From: an uncultured Saprospiraceae bacterium
GTDB taxonomy: Bacteria > Bacteroidota > Bacteroidia > Chitinophagales > Saprospiraceae
Direction of reading: 5' to 3'
Assembly (NCBI GenBank): GCA_937921825.1
Contig: CAKZVK010000002.1
Coordinates: 1-64,000, forward strand
DNA length: 64,000 nt
Both the position numbers and the translations under genes were made by a program. Positions within the stretch are counted from its first letter, which is position 1. Each line of letters starts with the position of its first letter. Positions 1,883 to 30,259 of the stretch are shown here, piece by piece. The notes below the pieces were generated by a model. It searched no databases and was not told where the DNA came from. It saw only the letters and a program-made list of their open reading frames with translations.

Positions 1883-3661
1883 ATGTATAGATCACATAAC
1901 TGTGGAGAATTAAGAATGAGCCATGAAGGCCAAGAAGTAACACTATCTGGCTGGGTACAGAAAACACGTAATCTAGGGGGTCTGACCTTTGTAGATCTTA
2001 GAGATAGATATGGTATTACCCAATTAGTATTCAATATGGATACCGATGCTGACCTGACAGAAAAGGCTAGAAAACTCGGAAGAGAATTCGTCGTAAAGGC
2101 TACGGGGATTGTCTCTGAAAGAGCCAGCAAAAATCCAGACCGTCCCACAGGTGATATAGAAATAGAAGTTAAAACCTTAGACATTCTGAATGCCTCTAAG
2201 ACTCCACCTTTCAGTATAGAAGAGGAGACCGATGGTGGTGATGACCTCAGAATGAAATATAGATATTTAGATCTTCGTAGAGGACCACTCAAAAGGAACC
2301 TCATGTTCAGATCGAAGCTGGCCGTAGAGACGAGAAAGCATCTGGCTGATGAGGGCTTTATAGAAGTAGAGACACCGGTACTGATAAAAAGTACACCAGA
2401 AGGGGCTAGAGACTTTGTCGTTCCTTCTAGAATGAATCCAGGAGAATTTTATGCCCTACCCCAATCTCCTCAGACTTTCAAGCAGATCTTAATGGTAGGC
2501 GGTTTTGATAAATATTTTCAAATTGTAAAATGCTTCAGAGATGAAGACCTGAGAGCAGATAGACAACCAGAATTCACACAGATAGATTGCGAAATGTCTT
2601 TCGTAACTAGAGATGAAATTCTAGCAACGTTCGAAGGACTGACGAAGTACCTCTTCAAAGTGATGTTAGACAAAGACCTTCCTGACTTCCCTAAGATGTC
2701 TTATGATGAGGCTATGGAAAGATATGGTAGTGATAAGCCGGATACAAGATTTGGGATGGAGTTCGTAGAACTGACACAAGAATCAAGAGGCAAAGATTTT
2801 CCTGTTTTTGACAGTGCTGAATATGTAGTCGGTATATGTACGGAAGGTACTGCAGAGAGTTACTCCAATAAGGACATCAAGAAACTAACGGAATGGCTAC
2901 AACGTCCACAGATTGGTTGCAAAGGCCTTGTCTACGTCAAGTGGAACACTGATGACAGCATCAAGTCTTCTGTGGGTAAGTTCTACTCAGATGAAGACCT
3001 TAAAGGCTGGCTAGCAAAAGCTGGTGCCAAAAAAGGCGATACCTTATTCGTCCTATGTGGAGAAAAGGAAAAGACACAAAAGCAGATGAATGAACTACGC
3101 CTAGAAATGGGTCGTAGATTAGGGCTTATGGATCCTACCGTATTCAATCCATTATGGGTAGTGGATTTTCCTCTACTAGAGTGGGATGAGGAAACAAAAA
3201 GATTCCATGCGATGCATCACCCCTTTACTTCTCCTAAGGTAGATGAGATACCAAACATGATGAACGGTGACCATCAGGCGATGAAAGAACTGAAGGCAGA
3301 TGCCTATGACTTGGTCATTAACGGTGTAGAAATAGGTGGTGGTTCTATCAGAATCCACGATAGAGAACTGCAGTCTAAGAACTTTAAGCTACTAGGCTTT
3401 ACACCAGAAGAGGCGGAAGCACAATTCGGTTTCTTGCTAGGTGCATTCGAATATGGAGCACCACCACATGGCGGTATCGCTTTTGGTTTTGATAGATTGA
3501 ATGCAGTTATGAATGGTGTAGATTCCATCAGAGACTTTATTGCGTTTCCAAAAAACAACAGTGGTCGTGACATGATGATAGATGCACCCAGTCCTGTGGA
3601 TCAGGATCAGCTGAATGAGTTGTATCTAAACTTGCAGGATACCACTCCTTCAACTGATTAA
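1883..3661 (+). CDS. aspS: Aspartate--tRNA ligase (AspRS)
   Basis: Class II aminoacyl-tRNA synthetase that charges tRNA-Asp with aspartate in the cytoplasm. The 592 aa length fits the bacterial-type enzyme. The N-terminal OB fold (about 1-110) begins [10 protein letters not shown] and contains [20 protein letters not shown]. Motif 2 is [16 protein letters not shown] near residue 217, the bacterial GAD insertion lies at roughly 290-420, and motif 3 is [13 protein letters not shown] near 531-545. A second, in-frame copy of the last coding portion lies 246 bp downstream (3797-3907), so the present 3' end may have been replaced or duplicated. The extreme C-terminus here (DTTPSTD) differs from that of the relic copy (EIEKGES). 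Confidence 0.97.
3551..3606 (+). repeat. 56-bp direct repeat, copy 1 (inside aspS)
   Basis: Bases 3551-3606 are identical to 3797-3852. This copy encodes the start of the AspRS C-terminal tail ([19 protein letters not shown]). Confidence 0.9.
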
Positions 3662-3796
3662 CAAAGATAGGTTAAGAGGTTTATGCCCTCTAAATTAGAT
3701 TGAAGGCTCCTAGCTGAAACTGATGTTTCAGTTCTCTCATTATCTCAACCCATTTAGGGTTTCGATTCAGCTTTCAGCTGACCACTCGTTCATCCT

Positions 3797-3907
3797 AAAA
3801 ACAACAGTGGTCGTGACATGATGATAGATGCACCCAGTCCTGTGGATCAGGACCAACTTGATGAGTTGTATCTAAATCTACAAGAGATAGAGAAAGGAGA
3901 ATCTTAA
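3797..3907 (+). pseudogene. Relic second copy of the aspS 3' end
   Basis: The first 56 bp are identical to aspS 3551-3606. The remainder is homologous but diverged, largely at synonymous positions (for example CTG/CTT and AAC/AAT), and encodes the alternative C-terminus [15 protein letters not shown]. It stays in frame and ends in TAA only 3 bp before the next gene's ATG. It has no start of its own and is separated from aspS by about 135 bp containing a CTGAAAC/GTTTCAG hairpin at 3714-3731. Inference: this is the original aspS end, left behind when the upstream part was replaced or duplicated by recombination. Confidence 0.8.
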
Positions 3908-28494: not shown

Positions 28495-29289
28495 TTAGGT
28501 CACTTTAGATCGAGCGATGATCTTTCTGAAAGTAGCAGGAAATAAGCGACTGACTATACCTGCCATCTTTACTTCTTTAAAACCTCCAATGTGCACTTCC
28601 TCTTTATGAGCAGCAACAGCAGAGAGCACCTTATCGACCATAACATTGACGTCCATACCGTTGCGCTGTGCTTCGTCCATCGTGCCCTGCGCCTCTCCGG
28701 AAGCTGTCAGTGCATTCTTAGATATATCTGTCTGTATATACCCAGGACAGACCATAGTCACTTTGATATCTGTCTCCATAAGTTCTGCTCGCATAGCATC
28801 AAAAAAACCATGCAAGGCCATCTTAGAAGCCGAGTAGCCTGATCTGACTGGTACTCCAAATTTTCCAGCCATACTACTGATAACAACATAGTGCCCAGAA
28901 TTCCTTTTTATATAATGAGGTAGAAGTCCAAGTGAGAGCTTCACCGTCCCGAGATAATTAATATCCATCAGTTTTTTGTAGACGGAGAATTCAGTTTCTG
29001 CCACTTTAGATCTCTGGGAGATACCACCATTATTAATAAGGATATCGACTTTAGACAGTAAGGCCATATTGTTTTGCAAGACTGCTTCAAGGCCTTCATG
29101 ATCCTCAAGATCTAGTGGAAGTACGGTACAACTAGTATTACATTCAGCACTTACTTTCTCCAAGGCTTCTTTCTTACGACTGGACAAGATCAATTCTGCT
29201 CCCTGGTTAGAAAGATTAATGGCCATCGCTCGTCCTATACCAGAACTTGCTCCAGTAATCCAGACTGTTTTATTTTTAAAATAGGACAT
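28495..29289 (-). CDS. Short-chain dehydrogenase/reductase (DHRS7-like)
   Basis: A 264 aa NAD(P)-dependent oxidoreductase of the classical SDR type. The cofactor motif TGASSGIG (14-21), NNGG (the NNAG equivalent), catalytic Ser in VISSMAG and YSASK (Tyr and Lys) are all intact. Arg40-Lys in LSSRKKEAL suggests NADPH preference. It resembles DHRS7/3-ketosphinganine-type reductases; with the oxoamine synthase about 1 kb downstream, a role in reducing a 3-keto lipid intermediate is possible but only inference. Confidence 0.9.
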   Translation of the reverse strand: MSYFKNKTVWITGASSGIGRAMAINLSNQGAELILSSRKKEALEKVSAECNTSCTVLPLDLEDHEGLEAVLQNNMALLSKVDILINNGGISQRSKVAETEFSVYKKLMDINYLGTVKLSLGLLPHYIKRNSGHYVVISSMAGKFGVPVRSGYSASKMALHGFFDAMRAELMETDIKVTMVCPGYIQTDISKNALTASGEAQGTMDEAQRNGMDVNVMVDKVLSAVAAHKEEVHIGGFKEVKMAGIVSRLFPATFRKIIARSKVT

Positions 29290-29353: not shown

Positions 29354-29440
29354 GCTGCTTCTGCGGAAGGAGCTAAGGGAAGCAGTTCAGGCCTTTTAGT
29401 TTGACATCTAGTCAAACTAATCTGACTCACAGAGTCAGAT
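29354..29440. repeat. Three-hairpin structured repeat, copy 1
   Basis: Stems: A, CTGCTTC/GAAGCAG (29355-29361 with 29379-29385); B, TTAGTTTGAC/GTCAAACTAA (29396-29405 with 29411-29420, 5-nt loop); C, TCTGACTC/GAGTCAGA (29421-29428 with 29432-29439). A conserved single-stranded linker GCAGTTCnGGCCTTTT joins A and B. Stems A and B differ from copy 2 by paired, compensatory changes. Confidence 0.85.
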
Positions 29441-29496
29441 CTACTCGCAAAAAAGAATCGTTCAAAAAAAATCAATCTAACATGAGCTTCCTCCTT

Positions 29497-29569
29497 GCTG
29501 CTGCTGAGGCAGCAGTTCGGGCCTTTTGAATTGACGTTTAGTCAATTCAATCTGACTCTAGAGTCAGAT
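29497..29569. repeat. Three-hairpin structured repeat, copy 2
   Basis: Stems: A, CTGCTGC/GCAGCAG (29498-29504 with 29509-29515); B, TTGAATTGAC/GTCAATTCAA (29526-29535 with 29541-29550, loop GTTTA); C, a perfect palindrome TCTGACTCTAGAGTCAGA (29551-29568). The last stem contains the radC stop codon (minus strand, 29564-29566). The B and C modules lie exactly 130 bp from those of copy 1. Confidence 0.85.
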
Positions 29570-30259
29570 CAGGCCTTCATCAAGGAAACTAAAATAGCCT
29601 TTGTCTGATATGATAAGATGATCCAGAACATTGATCTCTAAGGTGCTGCCCGCCTTGACTAATTTTTTTGTAATGTCTATATCCGCTTGTGACGGCTTTA
29701 GATTACCTGAAGGATGATTATGGGTCAGAATAATAGAAGATGCTTGTTCGTCTAGTGCTTTTTTAAAGATGACCTTGGGGTCTACTACTGTTCCTGCTAC
29801 ACCTCCTACACTTATGGTTTCTATTCGGGTGACCCTGTTATTTCGGTTCAGCAATAAGATTTTGAAGACTTCATGAGGTAGGTCTTCCATGGAGGCATAG
29901 ACACAATTATAAGCATCCTGACTACTGGTGATCTTCGGTTTTTCTTTTATCTGCGTCGCCTGCCGACGTCTACCCAATTCTAGAGCTGCAGCAATAGTAA
30001 TCGCTTTTGCTTCTCCGATACCTTTAAATTTCATGAGGTCCTTAATGCTGGCCCGACCTAAATCATTGAGGTCATTAGAAAACTGAGAAAGAATCTGCTT
30101 AGCCAGGTCTACGGCAGAAATACCACCAGTCCCTGAACCAATAAGAATGGCAACCAGCTCTGCATCACTTAAGGCATTATGACCTTTGAGTAACATTTTT
30201 TCTCTAGGCTTATCTTCTTCTGCCCATTGCTTTATGCTGAACGTCTTCTTGTATTCCAC
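29564..30259 (-). CDS. radC: RadC-family JAMM protein
   Basis: A 231 aa cytoplasmic protein of the RadC (YicR) family, historically linked to DNA repair though its role is unclear. N-terminal helix-hairpin-helix-like region (about 25-95: LSDAELVAILIGSGT and LMKFKGIGEAKAITIAAALELGRR), then the JAMM metalloprotease-like domain with HNHPSGNLKPSQADID supplying the His-x-His and Asp metal ligands. The start is GTG at 30257-30259. The stop codon falls in the terminal hairpin of the structured repeat, so the repeat abuts or has modified the 3' end. Confidence 0.95.
   Translation of the reverse strand: MEYKKTFSIKQWAEEDKPREKMLLKGHNALSDAELVAILIGSGTGGISAVDLAKQILSQFSNDLNDLGRASIKDLMKFKGIGEAKAITIAAALELGRRRQATQIKEKPKITSSQDAYNCVYASMEDLPHEVFKILLLNRNNRVTRIETISVGGVAGTVVDPKVIFKKALDEQASSIILTHNHPSGNLKPSQADIDITKKLVKAGSTLEINVLDHLIISDKGYFSFLDEGLI

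Follow-up and report, generated by a model that had tools for sequence, protein, structure and literature searches.

What are the two hairpin-rich segments that lie between an SDR gene and radC in this Saprospiraceae genome, and how did they come to lie there? The window analysed is the whole stretch of 64,000 nucleotides, in which radC (29564..30259) and, downstream of it, the SDR gene (28495..29289; name as in the preliminary description) are open reading frames on the minus strand. Copy 1 (29355..29439, plus strand, from A to C; letters read directly) consists of hairpin A (29355-29385, CTGCTTC and GAAGCAG around a 17-nt loop), the letters TTC (29386-29388), the left half only of a stem D (29389-29394), hairpin B (29396-29420, TTAGTTTGAC ATCTA GTCAAACTAA) and hairpin C (29421-29439). 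Copy 2 (29498..29580, plus strand, from A to TCAT) contains hairpin A (29498-29515, CTGCTGC TGAG GCAGCAG) followed by TTC, the left arm of D (GGGCCT, 29519-29524), hairpin B (29526-29550, TTGAATTGAC GTTTA GTCAATTCAA), hairpin C (29551-29568), the right arm of D (AGGCCT, 29571-29576), which pairs with GGGCCT, and TCAT (29577-29580). In copy 2 the outer stem D closes a three-way junction holding B and C, and the predicted fold agrees on both strands. The preliminary description had reported two structured copies with stems A, B and C. Its letters were found to be as stated, and the paired differences between the copies, three in B and one in A, were confirmed; the three in B are contiguous, and one-sided differences are absent from both stems. 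The radC stop codon (29564-29566) indeed falls within the last stem of copy 2, where the right arms of C and D are made up of the last radC codons and the stop. Stem D, the apparent mobility of the element, its target duplications and its insertions into tRNA and coding genes had been overlooked.

The radC region folded far better than shuffled sequences as RNA (z -7.0 on each strand), and copy 2 alone, folded as DNA, gave z values of -7.5 and -8.4 against shuffles. Rfam covariance models gave zero matches in the 64-kb window at the gathering threshold, and at relaxed thresholds nothing was found over the elements in 14 loci. A hammerhead-like reading of CTGATG was dropped, as these letters form the loop of hairpin A, and a terminator reading was rejected because no T run was seen by eye after the stems. 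As a separate observation, RF01687 (Acido-Lenti-1 RNA) matched near element copies, once above the gathering score (46 against 37, at L277:2181-2225 in genome G081) and four times below it, the weaker matches lying in L287, L282 and L292. These matches look like another dispersed two-hairpin repeat.

Two covariance models were used in the search for further copies: R1, comprising A and B and built from six copies, and R2, a full model of 81 positions. R1 detected both radC copies (copy 1 at 29355-29420, E 4.2e-12; copy 2, E 2.1e-16). R2 detected copy 2 (29498-29580) and a third copy in the window, at the 3' end of aspS, and gave no match to copy 1 at E<=1. A DNA search of the genome's own 4.0-Mb draft revealed relatives of the radC copies on other contigs, and a loop pattern with at most one mismatch matched 14 times, compared to 6 times for the reversed-pattern control. 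R1 gave at least 34 matches in this genome at E<=10 and at least 26 at E<=0.001, a lower bound on copy number since 150 of 827 candidates were scored. Across 40 genomes including this one, at least 18 had an R1 match at E<=0.1; here 145 candidates per genome were scored (all where there were fewer), and copy numbers are again lower bounds. Within the genus, at least 12 of the 14 genomes had matches at E<=3.4e-10, while among the candidates scored G004 lacked any match and G002 had a single one (E 0.04). Beyond the genus, R1 matched five genomes with E values of 5e-5 to 0.045, and some of these look like chance hits. An order-wide search of 198 genomes with R2, a lower bound because 23 candidates were scored under strict filters, found the element at E<=0.001 in this genome and in at least seven of the 197 others, all of the same family.

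The radC copies are not chance, having relatives on other contigs and in other species. They belong to a family of dispersed, coding-free elements of about 80 nt in Saprospiraceae, with the plus-strand order hairpin A, TTC, outer stem D around hairpins B and C, then TCAT. The preliminary description had proposed a covariance-model search of relatives and gene ends, and had named a lack of other copies and unpaired changes in relatives as marks of a chance or local duplication; many further copies were found and neither mark was seen. In other genera most copies, with stems that differ, retain CCC close to the left end, the TTC, a linker resembling CTCAT, a loop resembling ATTTA and an end resembling TCAT. 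Loops and junction letters are conserved across genera, the copies of G015 and G206 having different B loops. The closest match of the RadC protein in a named collection was to uncultured Saprospiraceae MAGs. Plasmid and phage searches gave no match to copy 2, and a literature search, with most subscription papers outside its reach, found no description of this element.

Covariation was already visible in the six seed copies, with double changes at 11 of 17 pairs. For a larger set, 100 matches from 60 further loci, 94 of them distinct, were aligned by fitting to the model (alignment A3). Of 1509 stem cells, 96.2% were paired; 505 were double-changed, 13 had changed one-sidedly to a wobble and 58 were broken. 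The numbers of paired and of double-changed cells and the covariation score were each reached by 0 of 500 shuffles, and slid controls were 23-43% paired. Two other counts were unremarkable against the shuffles, namely pairs having a double change (reached by 214 of 500) and further pair types (reached by 79 of 500). A hairpin C of at least 4 bp followed B in 91 of 105 elements, compared to a mean of 14 and a maximum of 24 for shuffled tails (50 trials). Stem D was examined in 70 of the 105 elements, namely those with a 53-nt core, a C hairpin and T[CT] in place. Here 221 of 420 positions paired against about 114 after shuffling, a value reached by 0 of 2000 shuffles. At positions 3 and 4 of D, 54 and 55 of the 70 copies, respectively, had a T.C/C.T mismatch, and all six D pairs were formed in seven copies. 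Thermodynamic folding formed D in copy 2, L057 and L059 and left it out of the aspS copy and L277, so that D of the common type rests on covariation. In a further alignment (A4) of nine rows, D was 69% paired; the rows had been selected because they were equally long and had an identified C hairpin, which makes the C and total figures from A4 circular. It was concluded that all four helices covary.

The preliminary description had taken paired change as the classic sign of a fold under selection. The paired changes stand, and selection is one option only, as the scarcity of wobbles is also compatible with one arm serving as the template from which the other is copied. The pairing letters comprised 1436 Watson-Crick pairs, 15 G.T, 23 A.C and 35 others, so that wobbles were no commoner than A.C mismatches, and the G.T and A.C counts swap if the RNA of the opposite strand is read. 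G-U pairs are usually tolerated in functional RNA helices. This tolerance, together with the lack of a wobble excess, favours DNA palindromes or templated arms over an RNA fold, with RNA possible too. Quasi-palindrome correction, in which an arm is recopied from the other arm during replication with no selection on the fold, is a lesser possibility as the source of the paired changes, and may coexist with mobility. It would suit the surplus of double-changed cells over wobbles (505 against 13), the contiguity of the three B differences at radC and the left arms of C and D at radC, which mirror native gene sequence. However, the 58 broken cells persist, and arm copying cannot explain why the unpaired TTC, the loops, the T.C/C.T positions in D and TCAT are conserved as well. 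Paired changes in bacterial hairpins call for caution, as they need not signal RNA function.

How the element reaches its sites is suggested by the third copy of the window (3714..3793, plus strand, A to TCAT; R2 match, R1 match at E 7.1e-6). It lies at the 3' end of aspS, a functional gene named from its own sequence (ORF 1883-3661). An 83-nt stretch inside functional aspS (3548..3630) is duplicated directly after TCAT (3794..3876), with 5 differences in 83, both on the plus strand, and the right duplicate is a relic of the native aspS end. The relic continues LQEIEKGES*, comparable to LQEIEKSGA* in G002, and the functional gene ends in a new tail, DTTPSTD*. Ten relative aspS loci were found. 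Eight of these, from eight genomes, contain the full gene end and show an empty site, and R1 at E<=1 found no copy in any of the ten. The aspS copy looks like an insertion, and the element looks mobile, given the flanking 83-nt duplication and the empty site in eight relatives. One point against the mobile reading is an 83-nt spacer between the left duplicate and the element (3631..3713, plus strand), which encodes the new C-terminus of aspS and is not explained by that reading.

Insertions into four tRNA genes match the aspS copy in pattern. At L070, L078, L081, L204 and L207 a complete tRNA lies left of the element and a duplicated part of it lies right, starting at TCAT or 2 nt later; by eye, the break falls inside the tRNA near the D loop in all of these except L204. 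Among 13 loci picked because of their duplications, nine scored at least 51, with 28-88 nt of duplication aligned. In a flank test of 97 elements, 28, including tandem arrays and larger repeats, scored at least 42, the highest reversed control being 35, and the other 69 had no flank duplication at score 42. Set against movement, besides those 69, are the loci beyond the genus, where only two of the 23 scored exceeded 33 and one of these two did so away from the junction, and two copies within the RT locus of a group II intron, at which no long duplication was seen by eye. At some loci the right junction is at or within a few nucleotides of TCAT, and a left-hand duplication of about 30-90 nt of the target keeps the gene or tRNA intact. 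Separately, an inverted copy of 9-17 nt of the target site was seen 8-31 nt left of A at L081, L207, L078, L070 and L158, all with tRNA-like targets. Such a piece scored at least 16 at 5 of 13 loci, all five tRNA-like, compared to 11 of 156 cross-controls. At L081 it is native, as it lies inside the duplicated target, and as a real feature the inverted piece is suggestive only.

With moderate confidence, the two radC copies are interpreted from these sequence comparisons as tandem copies of a non-autonomous mobile element that would travel as a folded single strand, carried by an enzyme whose gene lies elsewhere. The single strand is more likely DNA than RNA. The enzyme would recognise the element through its loops and junction letters, and TCAT, the 3' end of the element, would be ligated at the 5' side of a nick. 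The target would then be copied during repair that starts from the free 3' end, after which the left end would be joined. The ORF lists of L164 and L165 were inspected for an autonomous version in which two copies flank a gene, and no transposase-like gene was seen there.

Among candidate enzymes, the RAYT (Y1) transposases were checked by Y1_Tnp searches of this genome, the genus and other genera, by the genome's own RAYT protein and by running the element models on the loci. The preliminary description had listed a REP/BIME-like repeat as an option, and mobilisation of a REP/REPIN-type repeat by RAYT would agree with the palindromic, dispersed and tagged hairpins, with the presence of Y1_Tnp in 10 of the 14 genus genomes, and with a RAYT fragment at a contig end in G006 (L259) that has two copies directly upstream; the available text of PMC6006769 also describes Bacteroidetes RAYTs of subclass 2.6 flanked by atypical structures. 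Against it, copies were found near only 2 of 67 Y1 loci, some of which overlap. One of the two is the G006 fragment and the other, in G015, has a single weak match. No Y1_Tnp match was found in the draft G011, although it has at least 57 element matches. At eight Y1 loci inspected by eye the flanking repeats look like other families, this element lying beside one, and the printed copies carry GTTC after A and TCAT after D, with no GTAG/CGTC tag at the hairpin feet. RAYT was rejected as the mover on its distribution, and a REP/REPIN identity is considered quite improbable. Several RAYT genes (L246 in G000:C91, L248, L249, L250 and L255) were seen to have palindromic flanking repeats of their own, of a different kind.

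A retroelement, with RNA that a reverse transcriptase would copy into a nicked target, leaving long duplications like those of eukaryotic LINE/SINE insertions, would fit the exact right end, the long left duplications and the RNA-like fold. It is nevertheless very improbable: RVT_1 was present in 5 of the 14 genomes of the genus, and at E<=0.001 in none of the element-rich drafts G000, G001 and G011, where a SINE-like element would call for an RT. Copies occurred at two of nine RT loci, but within group II introns. Reverse transcriptase was rejected as the mover because its distribution does not track the element. The genomes are drafts, so the absence of Y1 or RT is not proof. At L239 (G003:C139) and L244 (G013:C79), element-like copies were observed within group II introns and their RT ORFs or next to them, and the RT ORF of L239 is split around one element copy.

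The gene ends raise a further reading, a functional structured RNA, either a 3'-UTR or a processed element, whose RNA fold is selected and whose spread is a side effect. Of 32 right-hand neighbours identified by a crude ORF caller, 20 are oriented towards the element, and in 12 of those 20 the stop lies within about 40 nt of B; the remaining 12 are oriented away from it, contrary to what this reading would suggest. A gene ending in FEPE* has the element in the same place in G000, G011 and G009, where its products are 250-287 residues long and 65-70% identical. The right D arm contains the stop codon of this gene, around which D covaries (GTAAAC/GTTTAC, GTAACC/GGTTAC and GTAATC/GATTAC), and A and C are recoded too. 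This gene is the best argument for fold selection at some loci. The element is likewise kept at radC in G000 and G003, and some gene-end copies are inherited, being found at matching positions in two or three species. Such copies could owe their place to a host function instead of mobility. However, the lack of a wobble excess and the tRNA-gene and aspS insertions with their target duplications speak against selection for an RNA, and this reading is regarded as unlikely for the element as a whole. Two further gene ends were noted. An ftsH-like ORF, named from sequence, ends inside an element copy as radC does (L021:3455, G000:C67), and by eye the end of a lysS-like gene seems to read into C and B at L051:918-970 and L177:397-449, where the element would supply the C-terminus.

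The radC end itself is native. Six of nine element-free RadC relatives end in DEGLI* and the other three in close variants (the radC ends of L151, L155 and L156 were not parsed), which places the right arms of C and D in the original gene. R1 at E<=0.1 found no copy in element-free radC relatives, and a match of 0.4 in L153 is at chance level. Tandem arrays were found elsewhere: 3.5 units of 200 bp on C66, and three units of 118 bp on C61, with B intact in the last unit only. At radC of G003 a repeated 87-nt unit begins with the letters of the radC end, from which it appears that the copy pair at radC probably arose by tandem duplication.

If the reading as a mobile folded single strand is followed further, a new class of mobile element may tentatively be proposed: a coding-free module of about 80 nt, known by its fold, that would insert as a single strand and, by copying 30-90 nt of target, allow essential genes and tRNAs to survive the insertion. 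Copies at gene ends would join the 3' end of the host mRNA, with the stop codon in one arm. The family offers a clear bacterial case of repeats defined by fold and not by sequence: all four helices covary, and the outer stem incorporates native letters of genes, namely the radC end and a stop codon. From the long target duplications it can be seen how such an element can enter aspS or tRNA genes without destroying them.

Several known systems resemble the element in part. The Nostoc SDR repeats described by Elhai et al. in 2008 are reportedly mobile, 21-27 nt long with one hairpin, and are said to have a common fold with compensatory changes, nested copies and no known enzyme; SDR, for small dispersed repeats, is the name they carry in the available text of PMC3116915. 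The element likewise has a common fold with compensatory changes despite differing sequence, and is alike in its apparent mobility, its nested copies and the lack of a known enzyme. It differs in its size of about 80 nt, its four helices, its long target duplications and its phylum. The double-hairpin and related elements of mitochondria are mobile hairpins with variable stems, and in both respects they resemble the element; they reside in organelle DNA, and to our knowledge have no outer stem. REP/REPIN sequences with RAYT are described in the available text of PMC3116915, PMC6006769 and PMC3733652 as dispersed palindromic repeats with a short tag at the hairpin foot and tandem clusters. The element is also dispersed, palindromic and extragenic, tagged at the hairpin foot and clustered in tandem, but its tag is GTTC, its stem sequence is not conserved, its fold is branched and it has little association with RAYT, lacking, with copies at 2 of 67 Y1 loci, the cognate RAYT gene flanked by its own repeat that would be expected for REP. 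Prokaryotic MITEs are short (<500 bp), non-coding and accompanied by a target duplication, as given in the available text of PMC10969869. The element is likewise short and non-coding, and a target duplication is clear at nine chosen loci and absent at score 42 in 69 of 97; it has no terminal inverted repeats, its left CCCAY region not being, by eye, an inverted repeat of TCAT on the right. The usual target duplications of MITEs are shorter than the 28-88 nt found at the nine loci. These long duplications point to an insertion route unlike the usual route of REP or MITE sequences.
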